Source of the DNA: Ruminococcus sp. HUN007
GTDB taxonomy: Bacteria > Bacillota > Clostridia > Oscillospirales > Ruminococcaceae
DNA: 64,000 nucleotides
Assembly: GCF_000712055.1 (NCBI RefSeq)
Contig: NZ_JOOA01000002.1
Location: 2,702,001-2,766,000, forward strand
Direction of reading: 5' to 3'
Shown here piece after piece: positions 24,748 to 51,967 of the stretch (position 1 is its first letter; every line of letters begins with the position of its first letter). A model generated the notes under the pieces. The model saw only the letters and a list, made by a program, of their open reading frames with translations, made no database searches and was not told the DNA's origin. Position numbers and translations under genes: made by a program.

Positions 24748-24865
24748 CTAAGGAAACGCTGATTTATTCATAAATCAGCGTAGGGCTCCGGGGCGAAGCC
24801 CCGCAAATCCCGCCTCCGTAAATCCGGCTTCGCCGGATTTACGATATAATCAGTGTTTCCCTAAG
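24748..24865 (+). repeat. Dispersed palindromic element, copy 1
   Basis: 118 bp. Ends: CTAAGGAAACGCTGAT and ATCAGTGTTTCCCTAAG, which are complementary apart from one wobble and one extra base. Inside are three hairpins: CGCTGATTTA-TTCA-TAAATCAGCG; CGGGGC-GAA-GCCCCG; and GTAAATCCGGC-TTC-GCCGGATTTAC. It is situated between the metK stop and the metK terminator. Confidence 0.9.
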
Positions 24866-24873
24866 AAAATATA

Positions 24874-24922
24874 GTGGAAGTGTGGTCGTTTTACGCCGAT
24901 CATACTTCCGCTTTTGTTTTTT
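24874..24922 (+). terminator. metK: metK terminator
   Basis: GTGGAAGTGTGGTCG (24874-24888) pairs with CGATCATACTTCCGC (24897-24911) with two wobbles; TTTTGTTTTTT follows. Confidence 0.85.
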
Positions 24923-24954
24923 ATGTCAAAAAAAGTTTCGAATAAAAAAAGCTA

Positions 24955-24983
24955 TTGCATGTTAGAAAGAATTGTGATAGAAT
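24955..24983 (+). promoter_or_regulatory. Promoter of the nfnAB operon
   Basis: TTGCAT (24955-24960), a 17-bp spacer and an extended -10 TGATAGAAT (TAGAAT at 24978-24983). The transcript would carry dispersed-element copy 2 in its leader. Confidence 0.65.
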
Positions 24984-25022
24984 AGTAATTAGTACGGCAA
25001 AAAACAGCCATATTGTGTTTTC

Positions 25023-25128
25023 AGGGGAACGCTGATCTGTGATCAGCGTGGGGGCCGGGGCGAAGTCCCTCTTTCTCCCCCGCACGCCGGTCCGGCGCAG
25101 CCGGATCGGCGGCTCGATCAGTGTTTCA
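25023..25128 (+). repeat. Dispersed palindromic element, copy 2 (in nfnA leader)
   Basis: 106 bp, ends AGGGGAACGCTGAT and ATCAGTGTTTCAT. The sequence has diverged but pairing is kept: CGCTGATC/GATCAGCG is a full stem, and CCGGTCCGGC-GCA-GCCGGATCGG pairs over 10 positions with one wobble. It lies between the promoter at 24955 and the nfnA start, so it should be transcribed as 5' untranslated RNA. Confidence 0.8.
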
Positions 25129-25156
25129 TTATTTTATAGAAGGAGAGATCTTTATA

Positions 25157-25984
25157 ATGTTTAAAATCGTTACAAAGAGAGCATTGAATGACGCAGTTTT
25201 CCTCATGTCAGTTGAAGCTCCGTTTATTGCAAAAAAGGCTCAGCCTGGTCAGTTCATAATTTTAAGAGTTGATGAAAAGGGCGAACGAGTTCCTTTCACA
25301 ATTGCTGACTATGACAGGGAAAAGGGAACTGTTACGGTTATTATCCAGATCGTTGGAAAGACTACAGAACAGCTTTCAAAGCTCAGTGAAGGTGATACGA
25401 TCCTTGACTTTGTAGGACCTCTCGGTGTTCCGACACACGTTGAAGAAGGCACAAAGAGTGTCTGCGTTATCGGCGGCGGCGTAGGCTGCGCTATCGCATA
25501 TCCGCAGGCAAAGGCACTTTATAACAGAGGTATTGACACAACTGTTATTGCCGGTTTCAGAAACAAAGATATTGTTATTCTTGAAGATGAATTCAAAGCT
25601 GCATGTACCGATCTCATCATCACAACAGATGACGGATCCTACGGCAAGAAGGGCTTCGTAACAACTGCTCTCGAGGAACTCATCCAGAGCGGAAAGAAGT
25701 TTGACGAAGTTATCGCTATCGGACCTGTTCCGATGATGAAGTTTGTCTGTTCAGTGACTAAGAAGTACGGCATAAAGACAATAGTATCACTCAACCCTGT
25801 AATGATCGACGGCACAGGAATGTGCGGCGGCTGCCGTGTAACTGTAGGCGGCGAGACAAAGTATGCATGTGTTGACGGACCTGACTTCGACGGACACCTG
25901 GTAAACTTCGACGAACTCATGAGCAGAAACTCAACATACAGAGAACAGGAACATGCCTGTCGTATGATGGCTGCAGCCAAGTGA
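25157..25984 (+). CDS. nfnA: NfnA-type FAD/NAD-binding subunit (NADH-dependent ferredoxin:NADP oxidoreductase)
   Basis: 275 residues from ATG 25157 (GGAGAG upstream). The fold is that of ferredoxin-NADP reductase/dihydroorotate dehydrogenase electron-transfer subunits: FAD-binding RVPFTIADYD, a nucleotide-binding VCVIGGGVGCAIAYPQA, and a C-terminal [2Fe-2S] site GTGMCGGCRVTVGGETKYAC. With the adjacent 26008-27393 gene it forms NfnAB, an electron-bifurcating complex that couples NADH and ferredoxin to NADP+ reduction in anaerobes. It was historically called a sulfide dehydrogenase subunit. The spacing to the next gene is 23 bp, with one shared promoter. Confidence 0.87.
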   Translation: MFKIVTKRALNDAVFLMSVEAPFIAKKAQPGQFIILRVDEKGERVPFTIADYDREKGTVTVIIQIVGKTTEQLSKLSEGDTILDFVGPLGVPTHVEEGTKSVCVIGGGVGCAIAYPQAKALYNRGIDTTVIAGFRNKDIVILEDEFKAACTDLIITTDDGSYGKKGFVTTALEELIQSGKKFDEVIAIGPVPMMKFVCSVTKKYGIKTIVSLNPVMIDGTGMCGGCRVTVGGETKYACVDGPDFDGHLVNFDELMSRNSTYREQEHACRMMAAAK

Positions 25985-26007
25985 TTCTTTAAGGAGGATT
26001 TTTTAAA

Positions 26008-27393
26008 ATGCCAAATATGTCTTTAAATAAAGTTGTAATGCCTGAACAGGATCCTAAGGTAAGAGCCAGAAACTTTGAGGAAGTTACTCTCGGCTATACT
26101 GAGGAAATGGCAGTCGAGGAAGCTGAAAGATGCCTTAACTGCAAGAACAAGCCGTGCGTTACAGGATGTCCTGTAGGTGTAAAGATCCCTGAATTCATCG
26201 CAAAGGTAAAGGAAAAGGATTTTTACGGTGCGTATGAAGTAATAAAGTCAACAAACGCTCTTCCTGCTGTATGCGGACGTGTCTGTCCCCAGGAAAACCA
26301 GTGTGAGGGCAAGTGTGTAAGAGGCATCAAGGGCGAGCCTGTAGGTATCGGCCGTCTCGAAAGATTCGTTGCTGACTACGTAATGAACGGAAAGGCTGTT
26401 CCGGTACAGAAGCCTGCTTCAAACGGTAAGAAGGTAGCAGTCGTAGGTGCAGGTCCTGCAGGTCTTACATGTGCAGGCGACCTTGCAAGACTCGGCTATC
26501 AGGTAACTGTTTTTGAAGCTTTCCATGTTGCCGGCGGCGTTCTTATGTACGGTATCCCTGAATTCAGACTTCCTAAGTCCATCGTTCAGAAAGAAGTAAA
26601 CGCTCTTAAGGATCTCGGCGTTGAGATCATGACAAACATGGTAATCGGCAAGGTGCTTTCAATAGACGACATCATTGAAATGGGCTACGAGGCAGTATTC
26701 ATCGGATCAGGTGCAGGTCTTCCGAACTTCATGGGTATCGAAGGCGAGTCACTTATCGGTGTATGCTCAGCAAATGAATATCTTACACGAATCAATCTTA
26801 TGAAGGGATATCTTGATGACTACACAACACCTGTTATCAAGTCAAAGAAGGTTGCAGTCGTAGGCGGCGGTAACGTTGCAATGGACGCAGCAAGAAGTGC
26901 AATGAGAATGGGTGCTGAACACGTATACATCGTTTACAGACGTTCCGAGGAAGAACTTCCGGCAAGAAAGGAAGAAGTTCACCACGCAAAGGAAGAGGGC
27001 ATCGAATTCATGCTCCTCAACAATCCTGTAAAGATAAACGGGGATGAAAACGGCAGAGTTTCATCAATGAAGTGCATTAAAATGGAACTCGGCGAACCTG
27101 ATGAAAGCGGCAGAAGAAGACCTAAGGAAATTCCGGGTTCAGAATTTGACCTTGAAGTTGACACAGTTATCATGTCTATCGGTACTTCGCCTAACCCGCT
27201 TATCAGAAGAACAACAAACGGTATCGAAGCTAACAAGAGAGGCTGTCTCATCGTAAACGAAGATATGATGACAACAAGAGACGGTATCTACGCAGGCGGT
27301 GACGCTGTAACAGGTGCTGCTACAGTAATCCTCGCAATGGGTGCCGGCAAGACAGCGGCTGCTTCGATCGACAAGTACATTTCTTCAAAGTAA
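26008..27393 (+). CDS. nfnB: NfnB-type NADPH oxidoreductase subunit (GltA-like)
   Basis: 461 residues, AAGGAGG upstream. An N-terminal iron-sulphur region (CLNCKNKPCVTGCPVGV and CGRVCPQENQCEGKCVRG) precedes two Rossmann folds: VAVVGAGPAGLTCAGDLARLG for FAD and VAVVGGGNVAMDAARSAMRMG for NADPH. The C-terminal GIYAGGDAVTGAATVILAMG is the usual second FAD contact. The family includes the small subunit of glutamate synthase, and annotations often read gltA; the partner gene and the absence of a glutamate synthase large subunit favour NfnB. Cytosolic. Confidence 0.87.
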   Translation: MPNMSLNKVVMPEQDPKVRARNFEEVTLGYTEEMAVEEAERCLNCKNKPCVTGCPVGVKIPEFIAKVKEKDFYGAYEVIKSTNALPAVCGRVCPQENQCEGKCVRGIKGEPVGIGRLERFVADYVMNGKAVPVQKPASNGKKVAVVGAGPAGLTCAGDLARLGYQVTVFEAFHVAGGVLMYGIPEFRLPKSIVQKEVNALKDLGVEIMTNMVIGKVLSIDDIIEMGYEAVFIGSGAGLPNFMGIEGESLIGVCSANEYLTRINLMKGYLDDYTTPVIKSKKVAVVGGGNVAMDAARSAMRMGAEHVYIVYRRSEEELPARKEEVHHAKEEGIEFMLLNNPVKINGDENGRVSSMKCIKMELGEPDESGRRRPKEIPGSEFDLEVDTVIMSIGTSPNPLIRRTTNGIEANKRGCLIVNEDMMTTRDGIYAGGDAVTGAATVILAMGAGKTAAASIDKYISSK

Positions 27394-27454
27394 TGTGACT
27401 TTTCCGTACGGAAAAACAGTACATTACAGCAACATTATTGGAGGCCAGTAAAAA

Positions 27455-27865
27455 ATGAATTTTACACCAGTTATACTCGCTGAGGCAGCTGCCGGATCAG
27501 AAGGAGCATATTCAGGAATGATCTCAATGCTCATTACATTTGTTCCGCTTATTGCTGTTTTCTACTTCCTTATCATCAGACCGCAGCAGAAGCGCGACAA
27601 GCAGGATAAGGAAATGCGCCAGAACATTGCTATCGGTGATGAGATAATTACTATCGGCGGAATAATCGGTCTTGTGGTACGTCAGACGGACGATACGCTT
27701 GTTATTGAAACAGGCAGTGACAGAAGCAAACTCCGTATTCAGAAATCAGCTGTTAAGGAAAATGTGACTGCAAACGAAAGAATGCAGGCTGCTGCGAAAG
27801 CAGAAAAGCAGAATGCAGGTCCTGACAAAACTGTGAATTTAAAGAAAGATAACAAGGCTGAATAA
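27455..27865 (+). CDS. yajC: Preprotein translocase subunit YajC
   Basis: 136 residues. A short periplasm-facing N-terminus, one transmembrane segment (MISMLITFVPLIAVFYFLIIRPQQ) and the conserved IRPQQKRDKQ boundary are diagnostic of YajC, an accessory of the SecDF-YajC complex at the inner face of the membrane. The C-terminal tail is charged and Lys-rich. GGAGG lies 10 nt before ATG. A strong terminator follows. YajC often lies near SCIFF genes in Clostridia, as it does here. Confidence 0.93.
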   Translation: MNFTPVILAEAAAGSEGAYSGMISMLITFVPLIAVFYFLIIRPQQKRDKQDKEMRQNIAIGDEIITIGGIIGLVVRQTDDTLVIETGSDRSKLRIQKSAVKENVTANERMQAAAKAEKQNAGPDKTVNLKKDNKAE

Positions 27866-27883
27866 TACAATTATTATGAAAAA

Positions 27884-27921
27884 TGCAGTTATTTCGAGAA
27901 GAAATAGCTGCAATTTTTTTT
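27884..27921 (+). terminator. yajC terminator
   Basis: TGCAGTTATTTC (27884-27895) pairs with GAAATAGCTGCA (27901-27912) with one wobble, followed by eight T. Confidence 0.85.
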
Positions 27922-27931
27922 ATAAATACTA

Positions 27932-27960
27932 TTGAAAATAAATAGACAGTGTGTTATAAT
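27932..27960 (+). promoter_or_regulatory. Promoter of scfA-scfB
   Basis: TTGAAA (27932-27937), a 17-bp spacer and TATAAT (27955-27960) with a TGn extension. It would give a ~100-nt leader before scfA. Confidence 0.75.
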
Positions 27961-28064
27961 ACTGTTTATATTAAAATTATTAATATTAACAGTGAAAATC
28001 TGGAAATCCGGACGTTGAACTTCCGGTATTTTCTTTATTGATCAGCGGTTGGAGGTGTTGCAGT

Positions 28065-28208
28065 ATGAAACATATAAGAACTCTTTGCAAAGCGGCTCCG
28101 GCAGGCAGTTCTGAAAAATCAGACTGCGGCAAATGCAGGTCTCTCTGTGTGCCTGCATGCAGAATGTCATGTACAGTTACAGTACATAAGAAAACCGTGA
28201 AAAAATAA
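28065..28208 (+). CDS. scfA: SCIFF ranthipeptide precursor
   Basis: A 47-residue peptide that opens with MKHIRTL and carries six Cys (8, 21, 24, 28, 32, 36) in the pattern DCGKCRSLCVPACRMSCTV. This matches the 'six cysteines in forty-five' family, whose members begin MKHIKT and end with a SCTV motif. The Cys residues are joined by thioether bonds to partner residues by the radical-SAM maturase encoded 85 bp downstream. GGAGGTG at 28051-28057 sits well for ATG 28065. The product's biological role is unsettled in the literature. The gene is easily missed because it is so short. Confidence 0.93.
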   Translation: MKHIRTLCKAAPAGSSEKSDCGKCRSLCVPACRMSCTVTVHKKTVKK

Positions 28209-28293
28209 AATAATATGAAAACCAGAAGGGACAATACGATACGATGTTGTCCCTTCTTGCTGATTTTAAGATGAAAAGAGGGCAGAGGGGCTT

Positions 28294-29664
28294 ATGATCC
28301 ATAAATTCAAGGCGGCAGGATACAACATAGTAATTGACGTAAACAGCGGCAGCATTCATGTAATCGATGATCTTACATATGACATGCTTGAAAACATCGA
28401 ACCTCCTTTTGATCCGGTCTGCCCGGAAGATGTTCTCGAAAAGCTTCAGAAATTTCATCAGAAGGAAGATATCTGGAGCTGTTACGATGAGGTGGTCGAG
28501 CTTTACAATGCCCATGAACTCTTTACCACGGAAGAGCCACCGTGTACAGGCTGCGCACCGGAGGTGCCGGCGGTAAGGGCCGTCTGCCTTAACATTTCGC
28601 ATGACTGCAATCTCAGATGCAGATACTGCTTTGCCGGAAACGGACTTTTCGGCGGCGAAAGAGGACTTATGAAGTCTGAAACAGCGTTTAAGGCTGTTGA
28701 TTTCCTTATAGAGCATTCAGGCAGTGTAAATGACCTTGAACTGTATTTCTTCGGCGGCGAGCCTCTTATGAATTTCAGCGTCCTTAAGGATACAGTTGAA
28801 TATGCTCATAAAAAGGAAGCGGAAACAGGAAAGAAGTTCCGCTTCAGTATCACCACCAACGGTACTTTTCTTTCTGACGAAGTTATCGGATATATCAACC
28901 GTGAAATAGACAGTGTTGTACTTTCCGCCGACGGACGAAAGGACGTAAACGACAGACTGCGCTGCAGACCGAACGGCACCGGGATCTACGATGAAATAAT
29001 GCCGCGATTCCACAGACTTGTTGACGGACGCGGCGGCACGAATTACTGTGTAAGAGGAACTTTCACGAAACTTAATACGGACTTTTCGGAAGATGTTTTC
29101 AGTCTGGCAGATGAAGGATTCACGAGCATGTCCATTGAGCCGGTGGCTCCGGGATCACCTGACTACTCACTTGCCGGTCTTGACATACCGATGGTCTTCA
29201 GGGAATACGACCATCTTACCGAAAGACTGATAGAATCGGAAAAGGCAGGAAAACACATCGACTTTTTCCCGTTCAGCGTGGATATAAGGCATTCCGGATG
29301 CGAGAGAAGCCGTGAAAAAGGCTGCGGCTGCGGATACGAATATGTTGCGGTCACACCGTCCGGAGACATTTATCCGTGCCATCAGTTCATCAGCGACGGT
29401 TCGTTCCGGATGGGAAATGTCCTCGACGGTACTTTCGACACAAAACTGCAGAACAGGTTTGCATCAACAGGAGTATCGACCATAAGCGCATGTCAGGAAT
29501 GCTGGGCAAAATTTTACTGCGGCGGAGGCTGCAGAGCAAGTGCTCACCTTCTCACCGGCGAGATCGATAAGCCGCACAAGCTCACCTGCCAGCTCATAAA
29601 AAAGAGAATAGAATGTGCGATCGCCCTTATTACCGCAAGGGCTGACATAGACGGAATACTGTGA
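28294..29664 (+). CDS. scfB: SCIFF radical-SAM maturase
   Basis: 456 residues. An N-terminal peptide-recognition part (about 1-90) is followed by the radical-SAM [4Fe-4S] motif HDCNLRCRYCF (Cys105, 109, 112), FFGGEPLMNF, and a C-terminal SPASM/twitch domain with many Cys (GCGCGYEY, IYPCHQF, ACQECWAKFYCGGGC) for auxiliary clusters. It uses S-adenosylmethionine to install Cys-to-alpha-carbon thioether links in ScfA. Length and motif layout are typical of the family. It is co-transcribed with scfA and ends in a terminator. Confidence 0.95.
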   Translation: MIHKFKAAGYNIVIDVNSGSIHVIDDLTYDMLENIEPPFDPVCPEDVLEKLQKFHQKEDIWSCYDEVVELYNAHELFTTEEPPCTGCAPEVPAVRAVCLNISHDCNLRCRYCFAGNGLFGGERGLMKSETAFKAVDFLIEHSGSVNDLELYFFGGEPLMNFSVLKDTVEYAHKKEAETGKKFRFSITTNGTFLSDEVIGYINREIDSVVLSADGRKDVNDRLRCRPNGTGIYDEIMPRFHRLVDGRGGTNYCVRGTFTKLNTDFSEDVFSLADEGFTSMSIEPVAPGSPDYSLAGLDIPMVFREYDHLTERLIESEKAGKHIDFFPFSVDIRHSGCERSREKGCGCGYEYVAVTPSGDIYPCHQFISDGSFRMGNVLDGTFDTKLQNRFASTGVSTISACQECWAKFYCGGGCRASAHLLTGEIDKPHKLTCQLIKKRIECAIALITARADIDGIL

Positions 29665-29670
29665 TACTGC

Positions 29671-29705
29671 AGGCGAAGTTCAGTTAATGAGCTTCGCCTT
29701 GTTTA
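29671..29705 (+). terminator. scfB terminator
   Basis: AGGCGAAG (29671-29678) and CTTCGCCT (29692-29699) form a stem, followed by TGTTTATT. Confidence 0.65.
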
Positions 29706-29765
29706 TTAGTATAAAAAAGTTGAAAAATTTGTCTTATATTTTTTTCTCAAATTCATTTGCGGATA

Positions 29766-29794
29766 TTGAAAAAACACGTGATGTATAGTATAAT
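29766..29794 (+). promoter_or_regulatory. Promoter of the SGNH-hydrolase operon
   Basis: TTGAAA (29766-29771), a 17-bp spacer and TATAAT (29789-29794). The leader to the start at 29968 is about 165 nt and contains dispersed-element copy 3. Confidence 0.75.
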
Positions 29795-29829
29795 TGATAT
29801 TAGCATGGTTTTTACGGGAAAAACATAAT

Positions 29830-29943
29830 ACAGGGAAACGATGACCTGTCTGCAGATCATCCGGGACACGGGGCGGGCCCCCGCACACTCTCATTCCCAT
29901 GGAGAAACGGCGAAGCCGGATCTCCGGCATGAAGTTTCACAGA
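29830..29943 (+). repeat. Dispersed palindromic element, copy 3 (degenerate, in leader)
   Basis: 114 bp. The ends are ACAGGGAAACGATGACC and CATGAAGTTTCACAG, still partly complementary; the third hairpin survives as GGAGAAACGGC-GAA-GCCGGATCTCC with mismatches. It is the most diverged copy. It lies between the promoter at 29766 and the first SGNH gene. Confidence 0.6.
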
Positions 29944-29967
29944 AATTAATCGGAAGGAAGTCAGACG

Positions 29968-30882
29968 ATGCCTGAAAACAGACCAGTATCACTGAACATG
30001 ACTGCTGTAAGAAAGAGAAAGAAAAAGTCCAATCCATTTAAATTATCACTGATTCTCATGTTCTATGTGGTAAGTATAATAGTAAGCTTTTTAATTTATG
30101 CAAATAATTTTGATATATCATCCAAGCCTTCAGCAACATACAACGGCGGAGCATCGAAGCAGGAACCGGTTGTGGTAACCGACTCCGAAGGTGCTTCAGT
30201 AACTGATGCTGACGGAAACACGCTCGTTGAGATGAGTGAAGTTGAAAACAGCGAAACAGAAGGAAACAACCCTGTTCCTGAGTCAGAGGCACAGCCGGAA
30301 TCATATCTTGAAAACTGTATGTTTATCGGTGACTCTATCACAACAGGCCTTTCAGTTTACAAGCTTGTACCGTCAGACAACGTGTTTGCTGATGTCGGGC
30401 TTCGTATAGACAAGATAAACGAAACTCCGGTCAAGAATACAAGATTTGACGAACCGGTCAAGGTCATGACTGCAATCGAGGAACTGAAGCCGAAGAATAT
30501 CTACATTCTTCTCGGAAGCAACGGTGTAGCATGGTATAACAATGACTCAATGATCGAGGCTTACGGCACATTCGTTGACGATATCAAGACAAAGCTTCCT
30601 GATTCATCTATCTATATCATTTCACTTACACCTGTAGGCACAATGAAGGAAAACATAGATACAGTTGAAAACGGAAAGGTTCTCAATTCAGAAATCGACC
30701 AGTTCAATGCAAGACTTCTTGAACTTGCAAACCAGAAAAACGTACATTACGTTGATGTAAACTCAGCACTTAAAGATTCGTCAGGAAAACTTCCTGATGA
30801 TGTTACCAGGGACGGTATGCATTTCACACTTGATGTCTACAAAAAATTTGTAGAGTACATTCTTACTCATACTGCGAAATAA
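29968..30882 (+). CDS. Membrane-anchored SGNH/GDSL hydrolase
   Basis: 304 residues. A basic N-terminus (RKRKKKSN) and one transmembrane segment (LSLILMFYVVSIIVSFLIYA) place an extracellular SGNH domain after an acidic linker of ~60 residues. Catalytic blocks: block I FIGDSITTG (nucleophile Ser), block III LGSNGVAW (Gly/Asn of the oxyanion hole) and block V DGMHF (Asp/His pair). Such enzymes act on acyl esters of surface polysaccharides or lipids; the substrate here is unknown. GGAAGGAAG precedes ATG. A second SGNH gene follows after 17 bp. Confidence 0.82.
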   Translation: MPENRPVSLNMTAVRKRKKKSNPFKLSLILMFYVVSIIVSFLIYANNFDISSKPSATYNGGASKQEPVVVTDSEGASVTDADGNTLVEMSEVENSETEGNNPVPESEAQPESYLENCMFIGDSITTGLSVYKLVPSDNVFADVGLRIDKINETPVKNTRFDEPVKVMTAIEELKPKNIYILLGSNGVAWYNNDSMIEAYGTFVDDIKTKLPDSSIYIISLTPVGTMKENIDTVENGKVLNSEIDQFNARLLELANQKNVHYVDVNSALKDSSGKLPDDVTRDGMHFTLDVYKKFVEYILTHTAK

Positions 30883-30899
30883 ACCGAAAGGCGGTAAAG

Positions 30900-31895
30900 A
30901 TCACGGACAGCAATAATATTGTAAAAATTACTGCTGCAGCTTTACTTGTTATATTTACCGGAAGCTATATTTCCACACTGGCCGGACTTGGATCTGAACA
31001 GGTCCTCGAAGAAATTCCTTCGGAAACTGTTGTCAGGGAAGCGGCTGTACTGGAAACTGAAGGCTCAGTTCCTTTCACCGGTGTACCGTTCTCCACAGTC
31101 ACAGTCTCTGCAGTTACATCTGCAAAGCCGGAAACAGAACGTACCTCACCGGTTACTTCAGTATCGGAAACGGAAGAGACCGAAACTGAAGAAACGGAAC
31201 TTTCCGAGACGGAAACTGAAGAAATTTCAGAAACAGAAGCGGAAACGGAACCGGAGATACCGGACGAAACAAAACCGGAAAAACCTGCAGGTCATTCCGG
31301 CGGTGACTATAACTATGGGGCGCCTGTTCCTGCATCAGGTCAGGTGAAAGGCAGCGATTATTATGATACATGTGCTTTTGTAGGGGATTCGCATACAAAC
31401 GGACTGTGGGCATACGGATTTGTTGACAGCAGCAGGGTCTTTGCAAAGGATGGCCTTTCAATAAGCAACATCCAGCAGAGCATAAGCCCTTCATCCATTG
31501 CATCCGTTTCACCTGAAAATATCTACATCATGATGGGGACGAACGGCGTTGCGTGGCTTAAGTCTTCAGATATGATAAGCTCATATGAGGATTTTGTCGG
31601 ACAGATAGTTTCGCAGATACCGGGAGTGAACATTTACATTCTTTCAATACCGCCGGTATCGTACGAACGTTCCACTACGACTGATGCGAAAAAGAATATC
31701 AGTATGGACAGGATAAGAGAATATAATTCAGATCTTCAGGACATGGCTGCAAGACATGAATGGTATTTTCTCGATACATTTTCAGCGATATGCGGATCCA
31801 GCGGCTATCTCGAAGGATCCACTGACGGTGTTCATATGAACAAGGATCTGTACGTGAAGTTTACCGACTACATCCTTAGCCATACAGTTGAATAG
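30900..31895 (+). CDS. Second membrane-anchored SGNH/GDSL hydrolase, apparent AUC start
   Basis: 331 residues if read from the ATC at 30900. The SGNH domain (FVGDSHTNG, MGTNGVAW, DGVHM) is encoded from about 31360 and closely resembles the upstream protein. In-frame sequence upstream encodes a clear membrane segment (ITAAALLVIFTGSYISTLA) and a ~100-residue Glu/Thr-rich linker with no stop. No ATG, GTG or TTG occurs in this frame before the GTG at 31344, which would cut off the anchor. A good ribosome binding site (AAAGGCGG) stands 5 nt before ATC at 30900, so a non-AUG start, or a single base error in ATG, is the best reading. Probable product: exported esterase partner of the upstream enzyme. 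Confidence 0.7.
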   Translation: MTDSNNIVKITAAALLVIFTGSYISTLAGLGSEQVLEEIPSETVVREAAVLETEGSVPFTGVPFSTVTVSAVTSAKPETERTSPVTSVSETEETETEETELSETETEEISETEAETEPEIPDETKPEKPAGHSGGDYNYGAPVPASGQVKGSDYYDTCAFVGDSHTNGLWAYGFVDSSRVFAKDGLSISNIQQSISPSSIASVSPENIYIMMGTNGVAWLKSSDMISSYEDFVGQIVSQIPGVNIYILSIPPVSYERSTTTDAKKNISMDRIREYNSDLQDMAARHEWYFLDTFSAICGSSGYLEGSTDGVHMNKDLYVKFTDYILSHTVE

Positions 31896-31905
31896 GGGGA
31901 GAGTT

Positions 31906-32370
31906 ATGAAAAAATTAATTTCAGCGTTCACAGCCTGTGTGACAGCAGGAATACTTTTATGCTCATGTTCCGGAGGCAGTTCCGAAGCTGCGACAGAGGA
32001 TCTTCTCAAGGCAGCACTTGACAACGGCACCGGATTTGATGAAATGGTCAGTGTTGAGGGTTCTGACATAAAATACACCTACGACATTGAGGAAAGCTGG
32101 TACGACGATTTTGCGGCATCCGTTGCCGGAAACATGGCCTATGCCGAGGAGGCAGTCTTTGTAAAGGCATCTTCCGATGAGAATGTCGAAAAGATCGAAA
32201 AGGCTCTTGAAAAGAGACTTCAGAGCAGAAAAGAGACTCTTAAAAGCTATGCTCCTGCGGAATTTGCCAAGCTGGAAAACAGCAGTGTCGAAACAAAGGG
32301 ACGCTATGTGTATCTCGTTGTGTGCGAGGATTCAAAAAAGGCTCTCAAGGCCGCCGAAAAGGCGTTCTGA
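31906..32370 (+). CDS. DUF4358-type lipoprotein
   Basis: 154 residues from ATG 31906 (GGGGGAGAG upstream). The signal peptide has a lipobox-like LLCSCSGG, so it is likely lipid-anchored. The mature part (AATEDLLKAALDNG, FVKASSDENVEKIEKALEKR, LENSSVETKGRYVYLVVC) matches the DUF4358 pattern of small Firmicute lipoproteins. Function unknown. It is 10 bp after the second SGNH gene and probably in the same operon. DUF4358 genes often accompany SGNH acyl-transfer clusters, which hints at a shared surface-modification role. Confidence 0.72.
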   Translation: MKKLISAFTACVTAGILLCSCSGGSSEAATEDLLKAALDNGTGFDEMVSVEGSDIKYTYDIEESWYDDFAASVAGNMAYAEEAVFVKASSDENVEKIEKALEKRLQSRKETLKSYAPAEFAKLENSSVETKGRYVYLVVCEDSKKALKAAEKAF

Positions 32371-32388
32371 AAACTTTAAAACCGAATA

Positions 32389-32505
32389 CTAAGGAAACGC
32401 TGATTTATGTATAAATCATTGTGGGGTTCCGGGGCGAAGCCTTGCAGATCCTGCTTCCGGAAATCCGGTGAATCCGTAATTCCGGTTTGATCAGTGTTTC
32501 CCTAA
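32389..32505 (+). repeat. Dispersed palindromic element, copy 4
   Basis: 117 bp, ends CTAAGGAAACGCTGAT and ATCAGTGTTTCCCTAAA. The first hairpin (TGATTTATGTATAAATCA) is intact; the central and third hairpins are eroded (CGGGGCGAAGCCTTG; CCGGAAATCCGG followed by a changed arm). It lies between the DUF4358 stop and the terminator at 32509. Confidence 0.85.
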
Positions 32506-32508
32506 AGT

Positions 32509-34912: not shown

Positions 34913-35420
34913 GATAAGATATGCCGGTACCGCCAACGATTCGATAGTTGACGGTCCGGGACTTAGGTTCTGCATATTTACACAGGGCTGTCCGCACAGA
35001 TGTCCGGGATGTCACAATCCGCAGACACATGATTTTAACGGCGGAAAGACCGCAGACCTGTCATTTTTCACTGAAAAGATAAGGAAAAACCCGCTGCTTG
35101 ACGGTGTGACCTTCAGCGGGGGTGAACCCTTCTGTCAGGCGAAGGCTCTGGCAGCACTTGCGCGTGAGCTGAAGGATACAGACCTTAACATAGTTACCTA
35201 TACAGGATATACATACGAGTATCTCACGGAAAATGCGGATGAAAGCAACGGATTCATGGAACTTCTTGAATGCACGGACATTCTTGTTGATGGTCCGTTC
35301 ATACAGGAATTAAGAAGTATTGAACTTAAATTCCGGGGAAGCAGCAACCAGCGTATAATCGACTGCAGGAAAAGTCTTGAAACAGGCGCGGTTGCTGAGA
35401 TCGATCCGGATACGCTGTAA
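34905..35420 (+). CDS. nrdG: Anaerobic ribonucleotide reductase activating enzyme
   Basis: 171 residues. ATG 34905 (MNEIRYAG) overlaps the nrdD stop, a sign of translational coupling. The radical-SAM motif CPHRCPGC (Cys29, 33, 36), FSGGEP and the N-terminal SIVDGPGLRFCIFTQG are typical of NrdG. It cleaves S-adenosylmethionine with its [4Fe-4S] cluster to place a radical on the glycine of NrdD. Confidence 0.96.
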   Translation: MNEIRYAGTANDSIVDGPGLRFCIFTQGCPHRCPGCHNPQTHDFNGGKTADLSFFTEKIRKNPLLDGVTFSGGEPFCQAKALAALARELKDTDLNIVTYTGYTYEYLTENADESNGFMELLECTDILVDGPFIQELRSIELKFRGSSNQRIIDCRKSLETGAVAEIDPDTL

Positions 35421-44481: not shown

Positions 44482-44537
44482 ATTGAAATGCTATTTGAAA
44501 TTATCTACCTATTATACTCATATTAACATGATATCTG

Positions 44538-44654
44538 TGAGGAAACGCTGATTTATTCATAAATCAGCGTGGGGCTCCGGGGCGAAGCCCCGCAAATCCC
44601 ACCTCCGGAAATCCGGCGAAGCCGGATTTCCGATATAATCAGTGTTTCCCTTAA
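44538..44654 (+). repeat. Dispersed palindromic element, copy 5
   Basis: 117 bp, ends TGAGGAAACGCTGAT and ATCAGTGTTTCCCTTAA. All three hairpins are perfect: CGCTGATTTA-TTCA-TAAATCAGCG; CGGGGC-GAA-GCCCCG; GGAAATCCGGC-GAA-GCCGGATTTCC. Relative to copy 1 the third stem has GG/CC in place of GT/AC, a compensatory pair change. It is situated between the CapD-like gene and its terminator. Confidence 0.9.
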
Positions 44655-44666
44655 GTAAAAAGATAC

Positions 44667-44717: not shown

Positions 44718-44720
44718 TGC

Positions 44721-44749
44721 TTGTATTTGATTCTGTGTTATGATATAAT
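44721..44749 (+). promoter_or_regulatory. Promoter of the GGDEF-EAL gene
   Basis: TTGTAT (44721-44726), a 17-bp spacer and an extended -10 TGATATAAT (TATAAT at 44744-44749). Confidence 0.7.
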
Positions 44750-44804
44750 TGTAAAGGAATTATCCGGTTTTACGGATGATCATCTTTTTAACAGAGGTGA
44801 GAAA

Positions 44805-47198
44805 ATGGCATCGGGAAAAAAATATCAGAAATTAAGCACAAAGTTTGCTTTGTCCTGTGTTTTGCCGGCCTCGCTGCTTCTGATCGCAGTATGCTGTGTA
44901 AGTCTTATGATCACAAGCAGAAATCTTTTGCAGTCCATGAGAAAATCAATGGAAATGCAGGCTACATCCCGTTCCGACGCTCTTGTTGATAGCCTCGATA
45001 AGGCTCTGTCCAATGCAGGCTTTCAGTCGAAGGTATACAACATTCAGCGTAACCTGAAAAACGAAGAATATGAAGGCGTCAGGGAAGTGCTTTCCCGTAT
45101 TTCCAGAAGCTCGTCCTGCTTTAACAATGTTTCTGTGTATGATTTTTCATCCGCAGATGCATGTAATGTTTATACGGAAAAATCAAACAGTTCAATAAAA
45201 TACACACCTGAATGGTATGATGAAGAACAGTTCAGTCAGTCAGAAGGTTATTTTGTAACTCAGGATATAACCCATAACGCAGACCGTACTCTTATGTACT
45301 ATGTATATCCTTTCAAATCGCCGGATTCTGATAAAAACGACCGCTGTTTTCTTGCCAGCGTCAGCAACGATGTTGCCCTGAGAATGCTGGAACTTTCAAA
45401 CGGCGTGGACGAAAGCCGCTGGATGATAGTTTCAGACAAAGGAAAAATTCTTTACCATTCAATGGAATATAAAAAAGAAGTCTTCGATATGATCGAAGAA
45501 AAGACGCAGAATGAAAGCGAACTTTCATCAATACATGAATTCAACGGCAGACTAATGCTGATCGTTGACAAAAAGATACCGGAAATCGACAGCATCAGGG
45601 TAATTTATGTTGTACCGGTCGAAAGAGCGCTGAAGGATATTACTGTAAGCCTTATTATAACCATCGGCCTTACGATCATCAGTATATGCATTCTTGCATT
45701 CTTTATTTCATACATGACAAAGCAGATGGTCGATGAGATAAAGGCTATCAGACAGAGTCTGAGCGGTATTCATGAAAAGAAGTTTGTCGGAGTTATCAAG
45801 TCTGAAAACCGTGATGAAATGGGTGATCTTGTTGATGATTTCAATAAAGTTATCAATCTTCTCACTTATCAGGCGGAGCACGATGAAAACACAGGTTTTT
45901 ACAATTCCAGAGCCTTTGCTGAAAAAGCCCGAAGGATCATTTCAGAAAATAAGGGCAGCAGCCGCTATGCGGTTATCAGATCGGACATTGACAATTTCAG
46001 CTTTATAAACGACATTTTTGACTGGTCAGTAGGAAACAGTATACTCAGGAAGATCGCAGCTATAATAAAGGATGTATTTAAGGATGCACCGCTTCACGGA
46101 TACCTCGGCAACGATATTTTTGTTGTGCTTTACAGGTACGATGAAGAGGACAACATGTACACCGATATAAAAAAAGCTGCCGACAGGATCAGAAAGTGTG
46201 ATAACAGGATACAGCTCGTACCGCATTTCGGTATTGCTGATGAGCTTGAACCTGAAACGGAAATAAGCGTTGCATGCGATTATGCAGGCGTTGCGCTCAA
46301 AACCATCAAGGGAAATATGCTCCGCGAATTCATTACCTACAACAACGATTTCAAGAATATGCACAATATGCAGAAATACGTTGAAAGCAATAAGCAGTCA
46401 GCCCTTGACAACGGTGACTTCTACATTCAGTTCCAGCCTAAATGCGACATTGTAACAGGTCGTGTTGTCGGAGCTGAAGCTCTTGTCAGATGGAAGAGAA
46501 GCGATACAGGTGAGATCATTCCGCCTGTTGAGTTCATACCTATTTTCGAAAAGAACGGATTTGTCATCACCCTTGACCGTTATGTCTGGGAGGAAACCTG
46601 CAAGGTTATAAAGCACTGGCAGGATATGGACTATCATGAGCTTCCGGTTTCAGTAAATGTGTCACGTGTTCATATAAACAATCCGCATTTTGTTGCTGAG
46701 CTTTATGCACTCGTAAGAAAATACGGAATAAAACCTGAACTTCTTGAGATCGAAATAACAGAGAGTGCTCTTCTTGAAAAAGGAGACGCAGAGCTCGAAA
46801 GCGTTATGGATGATCTTAAAACAAGAGGATTCAGACTTCTCATGGACGATTTTGCGTCCGGCTATTCATCACTTATTTCGCTTCAGAAGCTGCCTTTCGA
46901 TGTTATTAAGATAGACAAGGCTCTGATAGACGATGTTGATGATCAGGAAAACAGAAAGTTCGTGGCAGGTGCTGTTTCCTTCATCCTTGATCTCGGAAAG
47001 GAAATAGTAGTTGAAGGCGTTGAAAATGAAGTACAGCGAAAGATACTTGCTGAAGCGGGATGCAGCATCATTCAGGGCTTCTGCTTCTCAAAACCGCTTG
47101 ACATAGCAGATTTTGAAAAGATAGCATTTGCCGAAGATACGAACAGAAAAAATACGGATCCTTATGAAGATGATGATCCGCTTAATGAAGCATATTAA
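44805..47198 (+). CDS. Membrane GGDEF-EAL protein, probable c-di-GMP phosphodiesterase
   Basis: 797 residues from ATG 44805 (AGAGGTGAG upstream). An N-terminal membrane segment (about 14-38), an extracytoplasmic sensor region of ~250 residues, a second membrane segment (VSLIITIGLTIISICILAFF, about 290-312), a HAMP-like linker, a GGDEF domain, then an EAL domain. The GGDEF signature is degenerate (LGNDIF where GGDEF is expected), so cyclase activity is unlikely. The EAL side looks complete: EALVRW, SVNVSR, EIEITE, LLMDDFASGYSSL, VIKIDK, VVEGVE, IQGFCFSKPL. It should hydrolyse c-di-GMP, perhaps controlled by an external signal and GTP binding by the GGDEF remnant. Confidence 0.9.
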   Translation: MASGKKYQKLSTKFALSCVLPASLLLIAVCCVSLMITSRNLLQSMRKSMEMQATSRSDALVDSLDKALSNAGFQSKVYNIQRNLKNEEYEGVREVLSRISRSSSCFNNVSVYDFSSADACNVYTEKSNSSIKYTPEWYDEEQFSQSEGYFVTQDITHNADRTLMYYVYPFKSPDSDKNDRCFLASVSNDVALRMLELSNGVDESRWMIVSDKGKILYHSMEYKKEVFDMIEEKTQNESELSSIHEFNGRLMLIVDKKIPEIDSIRVIYVVPVERALKDITVSLIITIGLTIISICILAFFISYMTKQMVDEIKAIRQSLSGIHEKKFVGVIKSENRDEMGDLVDDFNKVINLLTYQAEHDENTGFYNSRAFAEKARRIISENKGSSRYAVIRSDIDNFSFINDIFDWSVGNSILRKIAAIIKDVFKDAPLHGYLGNDIFVVLYRYDEEDNMYTDIKKAADRIRKCDNRIQLVPHFGIADELEPETEISVACDYAGVALKTIKGNMLREFITYNNDFKNMHNMQKYVESNKQSALDNGDFYIQFQPKCDIVTGRVVGAEALVRWKRSDTGEIIPPVEFIPIFEKNGFVITLDRYVWEETCKVIKHWQDMDYHELPVSVNVSRVHINNPHFVAELYALVRKYGIKPELLEIEITESALLEKGDAELESVMDDLKTRGFRLLMDDFASGYSSLISLQKLPFDVIKIDKALIDDVDDQENRKFVAGAVSFILDLGKEIVVEGVENEVQRKILAEAGCSIIQGFCFSKPLDIADFEKIAFAEDTNRKNTDPYEDDDPLNEAY

Positions 47199-47202
47199 AT
47201 TG

Positions 47203-47230
47203 TCCGGTACTGAAAAGTACCGGATTTTTT
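47203..47230 (+). terminator. Terminator of the GGDEF-EAL gene
   Basis: TCCGGTACT-GAAA-AGTACCGGA (47203-47224), a perfect 9-bp stem with a GAAA tetraloop, then six T. Confidence 0.92.
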
Positions 47231-47244
47231 ATTTGTTTTTTGTA

Positions 47245-47273
47245 TGGAAATCGAATGGGATTTGTGATATAAT
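47245..47273 (+). promoter_or_regulatory. Promoter of the M16-lgt cluster
   Basis: TGGAAA (47245-47250), a 17-bp spacer and an extended -10 TGATATAAT (TATAAT 47268-47273). The -35 is weak. Confidence 0.5.
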
Positions 47274-47309
47274 ATAAAATGACGTATTTTTATTTAAAGG
47301 ATGGTGTAC

Positions 47310-48596
47310 ATGGGACTGAAACTCGATCGGGAGATCATTGCCGACGGTGTCGGATTTACAGAAATAACTGATCCTAAACTCAGGACAAGCGTACTGAAGA
47401 TCAAATTTGTTACGGAACTTTCAGGTGAGACTGCGCAGCTCAATTCTATCGTTTCACAGCTTATTCCGTCTTCGAACAGCCGCATAAAGACTTATTCCGA
47501 AATGTCAGACAGACTCGATGCACTTTACGGTTCATCGCTTTACAGCGATACCAGCAAGAACGGTGACTGCCAGACGATCACCGTATCGGCTGACTGCATC
47601 GACAACCGTTTTGCTTTTGATTCAGAGGATATTCTCGGTGAACTTCTTGACATAATAAATGACTGTATTTTTTCGCCCAATACAGATGAAAACGGATTTG
47701 ACAAAACTGAATTTGAACTTAAAAGAAGAGAACTTATTGAAAGTATCTATTCCGATATAAACAATAAAAGATGGTATGCAATGCTCAGGGCTCAGAGGCA
47801 TATTTTTAAGGGTGAGCCCGGTGAGTATTCCGTATACGGTACGGTAGAAAATGCGGAGAAAATAACTCCGCGTCAGGCATATGACGCATATCTGTGGCTT
47901 TTAAAGACAGCAGTTATCGAAATATACTTCGTTTCACCGGTTACCGATCATTCGGCTAAGGAACGTTTCAGAAAGATGTTTTCCGGCATGGAACGTGAAG
48001 TCCAGAATGTTCGTTTCCGTTCGGTAAGTCCTCTCAAGGCTGAAGTGTGCCGCGTTACGGAAAAGGTAAAAATGAAGCAGACAAAAGTCATAATGGCTTT
48101 CAAGTCAGCGACTGACAGCAAATATGCTGCGACTGTAATGGCCAGACTTTTTGGCGGAACGCCTTTCTCAAAACTGTTTTCAAACGTCAGGGAGAAAATG
48201 AGCCTTTGTTATTACTGTGCCGCTTCCTATGTTTTCAGCAAGGGAACGATGTTCGTTGAAAGCGGTGTTGAAACGGAGAATACGGAAAAACTCATTTCCG
48301 AAGTTCAGAATCAGCTTGACAGCATAAAGAACGGCGGCTTTACTGATGAGGAATTTGAAAACACTGTACGTTATCTCATCAATCTTGTGAACGGTGTGGA
48401 AGATTCACCGGGATCGGTCGTTACATGGTATTTTTCCGGACGCTGCTCTTCTGATGAGGTATCACCTGAAGAATATATCAGACGTCTTGAAAAGCTTACA
48501 CGTGAAGACATTATCGCGGCTGCACGTTCATTCAGTCTTGACACGGTATATGTAATGGAAGCTGATGCAGATTCAGAGGAGGATGACGATGAATAA
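47310..48596 (+). CDS. M16-family peptidase homologue without the zinc site (YmfF-like)
   Basis: 428 residues from ATG 47310 (AAAGG 9 nt upstream; the ATG at 47301 is too close). The two-lobed insulinase/processing-peptidase layout is recognisable (SVLKIKFVTELSGETAQLNSIVSQLI; SEMSDRLDALYGSSLYSD; NVREKMSLCYYCAASY), but the HxxEH zinc motif is absent. It overlaps the next gene, an M16 protein with HFLEH, by 8 bp. The pair matches Bacillus ymfF-ymfH: one inactive and one active subunit of a probable heterodimeric metalloprotease of unknown substrate. Confidence 0.85.
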   Translation: MGLKLDREIIADGVGFTEITDPKLRTSVLKIKFVTELSGETAQLNSIVSQLIPSSNSRIKTYSEMSDRLDALYGSSLYSDTSKNGDCQTITVSADCIDNRFAFDSEDILGELLDIINDCIFSPNTDENGFDKTEFELKRRELIESIYSDINNKRWYAMLRAQRHIFKGEPGEYSVYGTVENAEKITPRQAYDAYLWLLKTAVIEIYFVSPVTDHSAKERFRKMFSGMEREVQNVRFRSVSPLKAEVCRVTEKVKMKQTKVIMAFKSATDSKYAATVMARLFGGTPFSKLFSNVREKMSLCYYCAASYVFSKGTMFVESGVETENTEKLISEVQNQLDSIKNGGFTDEEFENTVRYLINLVNGVEDSPGSVVTWYFSGRCSSDEVSPEEYIRRLEKLTREDIIAAARSFSLDTVYVMEADADSEEDDDE

Positions 48597-49863
48597 GGAG
48601 ATCATCACCAGCAGTATAACAGGTGATTCCTATACAAGAATAAAGCATAAGAGCGGTCTCGATATACTTGTATGGGAAATGCCGGGATATTCATCAGCCG
48701 AGGCACTTTTCGGAACAAAATACGGTTCCATCAATACACGTTTCAGAACCCTTAATGACACCGGCTACACAACGGTTCCGGAAGGTATCGCACATTTTCT
48801 TGAGCACAAGCTTTTTGAAAATGAAGACTGCGACGCTTTCGCCCAGTATGCAAAAACCGGTGCATCGGCCAATGCCTACACTTCATTTGACAAGACCTGC
48901 TATCTTTTCAGCTGCACGAAGAATTTCAACGAGTCGCTGAAGATTCTTTTAAGTTTTGTGCAGAATCCGTATTTTACTGAAGAAACAGTGGAAAAGGAAC
49001 AGGGGATAATCGCACAGGAGATCAGAATGTGCAACGACAATCCCGGAAACCGCTGCTTTTACAATATGCTGAAATGCCTTTATCATGAACATCCGGTAAA
49101 GATAGATATAGCAGGTACGGTCGACAGCATAAAGCAGATAAATGCAGATCTCCTTTACAAGTGCTACAACACGTTCTATAACCTTAACAACATGGTGCTC
49201 GTTGCAGCAGGAAACGTAAATACAGATGAGATCCTTGCAATTGCCGATGAAAAGCTTCGTATGTGCGAGGACATAAAGCTCGAAACAGTATTCCCTGATG
49301 AACCGGATACTGTTGTTCAGAAGAAAATTACTGAAAAAATGTCAGTCGGACTGCCGGTCTTCAACATTGGTTTCAAGTCGGCGCCGGGAAGCGGCTATGA
49401 AGTTGTGAAGAATGAAATAGTGCTGTTTACGGCATTAAGCGTTATTTCAAACGCTGCTTCGGATTTCTACAGAAAGATGATGGCAGACGGGCTTATCAAT
49501 TCATCATTCTCAAATGAAGTATTTTCAGGTGACGGTTACTTTTCCGCAATAGCCGGCGGTGAGTCGAAGGATCCTGATGAAGTGTATGAGCGCCTTATGA
49601 ACGAGATAGCGCGTGTGAAGAGGGAAGGAATTGACCGCAGCCTTTTTGAAAGTATAAGAAAATATACCTACGGTTCAGTTATCAAGGAACTTGAAAGTCC
49701 TGAACAGGCTGCATCGCTTCTCATAAACAGTTATTTCTCCGGAACCAGCGCGTTTGACGGAATGAGGGCTATCTCGGAGATGACATATGATGATGTTATG
49801 AATGCAATAAACGAAAGACTTGATCCTGAAAAAGCTGTTCTTTCAGTGATCGAACCGCAGTAA
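48589..49863 (+). CDS. M16-family zinc metallopeptidase (YmfH-like)
   Basis: 424 residues, ATG 48589 overlapping the previous stop (GAGGAGGATG upstream). The zinc site HFLEHKLFE (HxxEH) and the downstream Glu in EQGIIAQEIRMCNDNP complete an active M16B peptidase; PEGIAHFLEHKLFE is the family's best signature. It is translationally coupled with the inactive partner upstream. No signal peptide: cytosolic. lgt follows after 16 bp. Confidence 0.9.
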   Translation: MNKEIITSSITGDSYTRIKHKSGLDILVWEMPGYSSAEALFGTKYGSINTRFRTLNDTGYTTVPEGIAHFLEHKLFENEDCDAFAQYAKTGASANAYTSFDKTCYLFSCTKNFNESLKILLSFVQNPYFTEETVEKEQGIIAQEIRMCNDNPGNRCFYNMLKCLYHEHPVKIDIAGTVDSIKQINADLLYKCYNTFYNLNNMVLVAAGNVNTDEILAIADEKLRMCEDIKLETVFPDEPDTVVQKKITEKMSVGLPVFNIGFKSAPGSGYEVVKNEIVLFTALSVISNAASDFYRKMMADGLINSSFSNEVFSGDGYFSAIAGGESKDPDEVYERLMNEIARVKREGIDRSLFESIRKYTYGSVIKELESPEQAASLLINSYFSGTSAFDGMRAISEMTYDDVMNAINERLDPEKAVLSVIEPQ

Positions 49864-49879
49864 ACCGGAGGGATATACA

Positions 49880-50963
49880 ATGGATCTTACAACACTTGGC
49901 CTTGAACCGGATCAGATCTCGTTTCCCGGACTCGGGATCGACCGGCTGAATATAAGCAGTACGGCATTTACCCTGTTCGGGGTGAATATAGCCTGGTATG
50001 GTATTATAATTGCATGCGGAATGATGCTTGCTATAGTTTTCGGACTCTCGCAGGTGAAAAAAATTCGGTATAAGTCCTGACCGTGCCACCGATGTCATTC
50101 TTGCAGGAATAATCGGCGGAATAATCGGCGCCAGAGCTTACTACGTACTCATGAACCTTGACTATTATTCAAAGGACTGGAAATCAGTCTTCATGACCCG
50201 AAACGGCGGACTTGCCATCTACGGCGGAATAATCGGTGCGCTTCTTGCAGGTCTTGTCGCATGCAGAATAAGAAAAGTAAAGGTTCTTCCGATGTTTGAC
50301 GTTGCAGCAATGGGCTTCTTCATCGGTCAGTCCATCGGCAGATGGGGAAATTTCTTTAACCATGAAGCTTTCGGCAGCAACACCGATCTTCCGTGGGGAA
50401 TGACAAGCGGAAGAATACAGTCGTGGATAACAGAAAACGCCGGAACTTCAAAAATTCTCGAAGGGCTGACACCTGAAAGAGCAGTTCATCCGTGCTTCCT
50501 CTACGAATCCATCTGGTGCCTTCTCGGCTTCATAATACTTTTTCTCGTTTCACGAAAAAGAAAATATGACGGTCAGATCCTTCTTCTCTACATCTTTTGG
50601 TATGGCCTCGGAAGAACCTTCATAGAAGGCCTCAGAACCGATAGCCTTATGCTCGGTAACATCCGAATCTCACAGGCACTTGCATGTATCTCATCCATAG
50701 CCGCCCTCATTCTCCTCTTTGCAGTCGGTTCAAAAGTAAAAAGAATGGGCGGCGACTACGTCTTCTACAAAGACACCGAAGAATCCAGAGCACTCCTGGC
50801 AGCTGACGCTGCAGCCAAAACCACAGGTGCAGCCGAAGAGGCGAAGGGCCATAGGGCGACCGAAGGAAGTGCAGAGCTCGATCGCAAAGCCCCTGTAGAA
50901 GGATCTGAGGACACAGAAGAAAATACAGAGGCTGCTGAAGAAGTAGAGAAAGAATCTGACTAA
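49880..50963 (+). CDS. lgt: Prolipoprotein diacylglyceryl transferase, one frame break
   Basis: About 360 residues after bridging a break at the A7 run 50057-50063 (one A too many): VKKI... becomes VKKFGISPDRATDVILAG, as in the family. GGAGG lies 11 nt before ATG. Multi-pass membrane enzyme with WYGIIIACGMMLAI, RNGGLAIYGGIIGA, the catalytic-region SIGRWGNFFNHEAFG, PCFLYESIWCLLGF and YGLGRTFIEGLRTDSL. It transfers diacylglycerol from phosphatidylglycerol to the lipobox Cys of lipoproteins such as the two encoded at 31906 and 35451. An ~80-residue Ala/Glu-rich C-terminal tail is beyond the family norm. Confidence 0.9.
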
Positions 50964-51004
50964 CAATAATAATTGAAATATAACTTAAAAGGAGAATTAT
51001 AAAA

Positions 51005-51859
51005 ATGGCAAAAATAATAAGCGGAAAAGAAGTATCTGCAAAAGTAAAAAACGAAGTTAAGGAAAAAACACTTGAACTGAAAAACAAAGGCATTGAAGTA
51101 GGCCTTGCAGTAGTTATCGTAGGCGATGATCCTGCATCAAGAGTATATGTAAACAACAAGAAGAAAGCCTGCGAGGAAGTCGGCTTTACTTCATACGAAT
51201 ACGCTCTTCCGGCAGAAACAACAGAAGCAGAGCTCCTCGCCCTCGTTGACAAACTCAATAAGGACGACAAGGTAAACGGCATACTCGTTCAGCTCCCTGT
51301 TCCGAAACACATCAACGAAACAGCTGTTATCAACGCTATTTCACCGGACAAGGACGTTGACGCTTTCCACCCTGTAAACGTAGGAAAGATCATGATCGGC
51401 GACTACGCATTCCTTCCGTGTACACCGGCAGGCGTAATGGAACTCATCGACAGCACAGGCGTTGAGATCGCCGGCAAGTCATGCGTAGTGATCGGCAGAA
51501 GCAATATCGTAGGCAAGCCTATGTCAATGCTCCTTCTCCACAGAAGCGGCACAGTTACCATCTGTCACTCAAAGACAAAGAACCTTAAGGAGATCTGCGC
51601 AAATGCTGACATCCTTGTTGCAGCAGTCGGAAGACCGAACTTCGTTACAGGCGACATGGTTAAGGAAGGCGCAGTAGTTATCGACGTTGGCATCAACCGC
51701 CTTGAAAACGGCAAGCTCTGCGGAGATGTAAACTATGAAGAAGCAGAAAAGAAAGCAGCATTTATCACACCTGTACCGGGCGGCGTAGGACCAATGACTA
51801 TAGCAATGCTCATGAAGAATACTCTTACAGCTGCAATGATAAAGAATAATTTAATGTAA
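51005..51859 (+). CDS. folD: Methylenetetrahydrofolate dehydrogenase/cyclohydrolase
   Basis: 284 residues, AAAGGAG before ATG. Signatures: [24 protein letters not shown] (with the catalytic Lys), [13 protein letters not shown], the second FolD signature [28 protein letters not shown] and [15 protein letters not shown]. The bifunctional enzyme interconverts methylene-, methenyl- and formyl-tetrahydrofolate for purine and one-carbon metabolism. Its TAA stop lies inside the left end of dispersed-element copy 6. Confidence 0.97.
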
Positions 51860-51967
51860 GGAAAACACTGATCTGTTCATAAATCACCGGGGACCGGGGT
51901 GAAGCCCGCAAATTCCCTTCTCCGTAAATCCGGCGAAGCAGGATTTACGGTTTGATCAGTGATAAAC
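51857..51967 (+). repeat. Dispersed palindromic element, copy 6
   Basis: 111 bp starting exactly at the folD stop codon (TAAGGAAAACACTGAT). The 3' end is eroded (ATCAGTGATAAAC). The third stem reads CCGTAAATCC...GGATTTACGG, keeping the GT/AC pair variant seen in copy 1. It lies 40 bp before the GGDEF gene. Confidence 0.8.

Follow-up and report, generated by a model that had tools for sequence, protein, structure and literature searches.

Miniature inverted-repeat transposable elements (MITEs) whose ends match those of a resident insertion sequence (IS) have been described in Porphyromonas gingivalis, where the gene-less MITE239, MITEPgRS/464, MITE700 and BrickBuilt carry terminal inverted repeats that equal or closely resemble those of the IS5-family elements resident there, and where BrickBuilt retains no transposase remnant (PMC4596501). 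QMITE1 and QMITE2 of Coxiella burnetii, like prokaryotic MITEs more widely, are intergenic and have terminal repeats, with direct repeats in younger copies, and transcripts predicted to fold into stable stem-loops are listed among their common features (PMC10969869). Repetitive extragenic palindromic (REP) sequences and bacterial interspersed mosaic elements (BIME) are likewise short, intergenic, high-copy palindromes, with a length of 20-40 bp (PMC3733652). Here we describe a gene-less repeat of about 109 bp in Ruminococcus sp. HUN007, six copies of which (c1 to c6) lie within the 64,000 nucleotides of contig NZ_JOOA01000002.1 that were analysed (C2:2702001-2766000; hereafter the window). The initial annotation had left the choice between a MITE-like mobile repeat and a family of structured RNAs. 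Because the element has terminal inverted repeats and target duplications, shares its ends and target motif with a resident IS, and is missing from empty orthologous sites in relatives, we are confident that it is a MITE, that is, a gene-less non-autonomous transposon, of the IS5 kind.

In the Ruminococcus genome, the resident IS shares with the IS5 family both the transposase family and the YTAR target, and the MITE itself carries no gene. Its termini differ from those of the P. gingivalis MITEs, which belong to another phylum, and BrickBuilt has a minisatellite where the Ruminococcus element has nested hairpins. QMITE2 has direct repeats of 7-9 bp and terminal repeats of 23-29 bp and is of other sequence (PMC10969869). 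No published account of the element was found in a literature search judged by title and the start of the abstract, which does not establish its absence from print; the element is apparently unreported, and adds one more to an established type, MITEs with the ends of resident IS5-family elements being already known.

A covariance model was built from the six window copies and used to search the window, the 4.2-Mb genome of the strain (G000) and ten other genomes of the genus (G001-G010). All six copies were recovered where the initial annotation had placed them, at 79-135 bits and on the + strand; six other window matches were antisense or partial echoes at identical places, at no more than 27 bits. 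Window copies have cores of 104-109 bp with 4-bp flanks, and the element is too short for a transposase gene. The termini are GGAAAC(G/A)CTGAT...ATCAGTGTTTCC, with the inverted repeat GGAAAC(G/A)CTGAT at both ends and a per-position conservation of 77-99% over the 168 copies that scored 80 bits or more. These ends are as previously described, except that the outer CTAA/TTAA is part of the target-site duplication. From left to right the element consists of the left end GGAAACGCTGAT, hairpin 1 (CGCTGATTTAT/ATAAATCAGCG), a G+C-rich hairpin 2 and a longer hairpin 3, each closed by a GAA loop, and the right end. The three hairpins and two GAA loops of the initial annotation are thus present, but hairpin 1 is an alternative to an outer stem: the right arm of hairpin 1 repeats part of the left end in inverted form, and the left end can pair either there or with the right end, using the same bases. 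In most copies the minimum-energy fold contains the outer stem and lacks hairpin 1.

At least 160 distinct copies of 44 bits or more were found in 1.74 of the 4.2 Mb of the strain's own genome, covered by an even sample and by additional targeted stretches, 83 on the + and 77 on the - strand. Matches below 44 bits were left out, as were 9 of 155 in one match set (six repeats of copies already counted, and L033, L034 and L038, which are matches from relatives where the element occurs once or twice). All 150 candidates scored, the best 150 of 1523 first-look candidates, matched the model, so that the genome has at least 150 matches, and the even sample, made up of 59 20-kb stretches (1.18 Mb), contained 49 copies scoring 44 bits or more, corresponding to about 174 genome-wide. 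Placement between genes held throughout: by a simple call based on open reading frames (ORFs) of at least 80 amino acids, 156 of the 160 copies are intergenic, the other 4 overlap an ORF by more than 25 bp, and none is contained within one. Five further copies on contig C3 have apparent indel errors and were excluded from the copy count, from the count of duplications in 149 copies and from the 168-copy set. On that contig (L105, 14.7 kb) the five copies carry extra single-base indels and two have identical flanks in opposite orientation; the contig is possibly of low quality or mis-assembled. Left-end hairpins lacking the remaining element were seen at L098:18530, L065:526, L053:1535 and L048:11094; these may be truncated copies, or belong to a smaller type of MITE sharing the ends.

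Target-site duplication was analyzed in the 149 own-genome copies for which both ends were found. An exact 4-bp duplication was present in 79 of these, whereas 5000 shuffles of the right flanks among copies gave 23.0 on average and 37 at most, and the adjacent outer 4 bp were identical in just 2 of the 149. (This count supersedes an earlier set of 75 copies, the C3 copies included, in which 40 were exact, with a mean of 11.4 and a maximum of 21 over 2000 shuffles.) The YTAR motif fits 64 of the 79 exact duplications (TTAA 38, TTAG 13, CTAA 9, CTAG 4). In copies from G005 and G009, 20 of 34 duplications were exact, 18 of these 20 conforming to YTAR. YTAR is the target motif of IS5 (PMC10359306).

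Scanning for the MITE end motifs outside MITE copies located a 1224-bp IS which encodes a 331-amino-acid transposase with the Pfam domains DDE_Tnp_1 and DUF772, scoring 307 bits against the NCBIfam model NF033581 'IS5 family' (cut-off 140). The genome carries ten full-length copies of this IS, together with fragments at two further places. YTAR flanks all ten copies on both sides, with identical letters on the two sides in nine, and nine copies are 0 or 1 base away from the tenth, which suggests recent transposition in the lineage. The MITE consensus agrees with the IS at 17 of 18 positions of the left end and 15 of 18 of the right, and the MITE-IS alignment score of 31 exceeded the best among 200 shuffles (26). 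Once the outer 18 nt were removed, the core scored 22, a value reached by 4 of 200 shuffles, so that no interior similarity above shuffles was detected; the best match of the trimmed core was the TAAATCAGCGT motif at the IS end, which is also found in the right arm of hairpin 1. The core cannot be recognised as a product of internal deletion of the resident IS (type I), and the element is therefore a type II MITE sharing only the ends. Among the matches listed first in a search covering up to 5000 records, plasmid-borne IS5-family proteins were at most 49.8% identical to the resident transposase, and in the best 120 of 7977 scored transposase relatives the full-length ones outside a 99-100% group were about 70-76% identical. 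Two full-length IS copies stand head to tail with one TTAG shared at L113/L114 (G000:C2 about 2775600-2779800), and a third follows shortly after.

The region of the window is syntenic with that of relatives, at up to 95% identity, and the check for empty orthologous sites that had been proposed at the outset found c2 and c4 empty in relatives. The c4 site is empty in G009, where the junction has the length of the own-genome sequence minus the element and one CTAA, the target letters having diverged; G007 also has no element at this place. At c2 the element is present in G000, G005 and G009, and the sequence is uninterrupted in G007, G003 and G001, with a single TTAG in G007 and G003. Copy c1 is common to G000 and G005; c3 is absent from G009, where the immediate flanks differ and a copy lies about 75 bp away instead; and the genes flanking c5 are not neighbours in the relatives checked.

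Other sequences were observed at the places of c1, c4 and c6. The c4 place of G004 holds about 130 other bases unmatched by the model (L139:4262-4439), with two different hairpins and the similar ends TAGTAAACGC... and ...TTTCACTATA, possibly another small mobile repeat. In G009, decayed opposite-strand matches occupy the places of c1 (46 bits, L134:2395-2505) and c6 (33 bits, L310:2220-2315); these may be in-place inversions, separate insertions or ambiguous matches to a near-palindrome.

With respect to distribution, three of the 11 genus genomes are high-copy (G000, with G005 and G009 at 150 copies or more each), three have one or two copies (two in G010, one in G008 and one weak copy in G003) and the covariance model search found no copy in the remaining five (G001, G002, G004, G006 and G007). 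No copy was found at E of 1e-4 or lower in 50 genomes of other genera, searched with stricter filters, and nothing matching the element was present in the plasmid and phage collections. Scanning named genomes for the pattern gave 86 stretches, and the 80 listed belong to two genomes assembled from metagenomes, namely RUG13497 of an uncultured Ruminococcus and RGIG2815 from goat omasum.

As a mechanism we propose recognition of the ends of the element by a transposase of the IS5 family working in trans. Insertion would be directed to YTAR-like sites, the insertion and the duplication of 4 bp being themselves observed, and insertions hitting genes would presumably be lost, leaving the intergenic bias. 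Copies in operons would be transcribed passively, each adding stable stem-loops to the host mRNA, and the nested hairpins would be a property of the element. From the sequences we infer that the resident IS mobilises the MITE. Several observations weigh against this account. Fifteen of the 79 exact duplications are not YTAR (TTAT being commonest, with 6) and 70 of the 149 are inexact; in the window, c5 has no matching duplication and that of c3 is ACAG. G005 has a copy near window position 35420 which the own genome lacks; since the own genome also lacks the neighbouring bases and G009 has a partial copy, this case may be a loss in the own genome. Covariation in hairpin 3, described below, is not demanded of a MITE. 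No IS5 transposase of the resident subfamily was found in the MITE-rich G005 and G009, an absence to which we give little weight, since the two assemblies are drafts broken into 340 and 110 contigs. Finally, the ten IS copies are near-identical and the 168 MITE copies compared average 84% pairwise identity. The MITEs being far more diverged, most of them would predate the present IS burst, and this age gap, taken with the transposase unfound in two MITE-rich relatives, indicates that earlier or now-lost IS relatives may have moved most copies.

The same divergence and the same absence from G005 and G009 favour a first alternative, in which most of the movement of the MITE was due to a different transposase whose ends were similar and which has since been lost or is not in the assemblies, the IS5 element of this genome being a relative and not the motor. 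The three differences in 18 positions at the right end also fit this explanation, but the left end is identical at 17 of 18 positions, the target motif is that of the resident IS, and none of the other ten genus genomes has an NF033581 match over the cut-off. We consider another motor doubtful, and retain the interpretation as an IS5-type MITE.

The second alternative takes the element as a structured-RNA family, either a riboswitch-like leader or a small RNA, the fold of which is conserved and the copies of which were spread by duplication. In support of the observation in the initial annotation that stems stay paired while their sequence changes, pair counts on 111 matches from 100 own-genome sources beat all 500 shuffles on all five measures, with 94.2% of cells paired. 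Two-sided changes were seen in 19 pairs and 74 cells (shuffled means 9.0 and 17.0), part of which can be yielded by relatedness alone. Against slid controls the values were higher on four measures, with a covariation score of 0.135 versus at most 0.051, but the +2 slid control matched the number of pairs with two-sided change (20 versus 19). The signal is concentrated in hairpin 3, where covariation is real: all six pairs of the basal helix show two-sided changes, 98.0% of cells are paired, at least one compensatory pair is present in 46 of 168 copies, and 61 compensatory cells compare with 7-11 in the other stems.

If selection acted on the + strand RNA, changes giving G-U should be favoured over those giving A-C. 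Base-level events inferred on a FastTree tree of the 168 copies gave G-U:A-C counts of 47:46 in the outer stem, 21:24 in hairpin 1, 63:49 in hairpin 2 and 38:22 in hairpin 3; hairpins 2 and 3 together gave 101:71 (binomial p=0.027, uncorrected). Unpaired positions gave 96:45, a ratio unmatched by any stem, this control not being base-balanced and the tree, from 119 positions, being weak. Single changes counted at the level of pairs were 37:31 in the outer stem, 13:21 in hairpin 1, 56:39 in hairpin 2 and 25:8 in hairpin 3. Outside hairpin 3 the strand test was negative for RNA selection, and in hairpin 3 the excess of G-U was modest. In the latter, double transversions outnumbered double transitions among the compensatory changes (23 versus 13), which is not the pattern favoured by stepwise G-U intermediates.

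Orientation was also considered. The single orientation, matching the genes, of the initial annotation holds for the six window copies and does not extend to the genome, where both strands are used about equally. Between co-directional genes 66 copies were co-oriented and 36 ran against the genes (p=0.004); with the window copies removed the counts were 60:36 (p=0.018), and they were 19:11 (p=0.20) when restricted to the even sample. Orientation with genes is a tendency rather than a rule, and this lean showed no difference between high- and low-scoring copies (27:19 versus 39:17, p=0.30).

While the covariation above shuffles, the 25:8 count and the orientation lean would suit a structured-RNA family, its presence is patchy, it lies on both strands with duplicated targets and empty sites, and Rfam gave no matches in the window at curated score and none on the element at E of 1 or lower in three loci. 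We regard an RNA family as very unlikely, and the structured-RNA half of the initial annotation is not supported. Separately, a c-di-GMP-I riboswitch (75 bits) at L004:1401-1486 ends about 15 bases ahead of a MITE match at 1501-1619.

A narrower possibility is that hairpin 3 of the MITE is selected as + sense RNA, the copies between co-directional genes serving as portable mRNA structures. The excess of G-U over A-C in hairpin 3, its six two-sided basal pairs and the orientation lean are compatible with such selection, which we nevertheless hold to be unlikely. Between G000 and G005, the orthologous c1 copies show a compensated pair and the flip of a GAA/TTC loop, differences which could arise if one arm of a DNA palindrome were copied onto the other. 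Flipped loops (TTC or TTT, in 16 of 168 copies) were not associated with compensatory pairs (p=0.77) and give no help to that idea. Perhaps hairpin 3 is kept palindromic by DNA-level arm-to-arm copying, by some selection on the transcript, or by both.

REP and BIME elements are tied to Y1 transposases, and although the present element is a short, palindromic, intergenic, high-copy repeat, its movement by a REP-associated tyrosine transposase is largely refuted, and scarcely credible, in view of its length of about 109 bp with target duplications and of the missing Y1 transposase (PF01797), not found in the assembled own genome by a search that was positive in 5 of 14 control genomes.

Table 1. 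Copies of the MITE in the window, with core positions and 4-bp flanks.
Copy	Position	Strand	Core	Flanks	Remarks
c1	24748..24864	+	24752-24860	exact 4-bp duplication, CTAA either side	
c2	25021..25132	+	25025-25128	TCAG/TTAT, non-identical	
c3	29830..29942	+	29834-29938	ACAG either side, non-YTAR	divergent; 79 bits
c4	32389..32505	+	32393-32501	exact CTAA duplication	
c5	44537..44653	+	44541-44649	GTGA/CTTA, mismatch	135 bits, top score among the six
c6	51857..51967	+	left end 51861		decayed right end

Two of the window copies abut genes closely. The stop of the ORF upstream of c6 (51857-51859) falls within the left flank of that copy, and c2 lies directly 5' of a ribosome-binding-like AGGAGAG and the start of the next gene. 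Since c2 stands between this gene start and a promoter-like stretch conserved in relatives (judged by eye), it is probably within a transcribed 5' leader. Elsewhere in the window, two large ORFs (744-6671 and 16789-19977) contain long arrays of a common 63-bp repeat, many copies being 80-90% alike, and at 11798-13976 a 300-bp stretch is repeated every 940 bp or so, the later two being 93% identical to the first.

Recognition of the element as a MITE explains about 170 intergenic repeats of a single genome that would otherwise be unaccounted for. It also advises caution, in that covariation-based RNA discovery can catch MITEs, since a signal above shuffles appears here in an element with a transposon insertion history. 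If arm-to-arm correction proved true, the family would be a natural record of palindrome correction. The family could also be used as a marker of genome change among the gut bacteria of this group.

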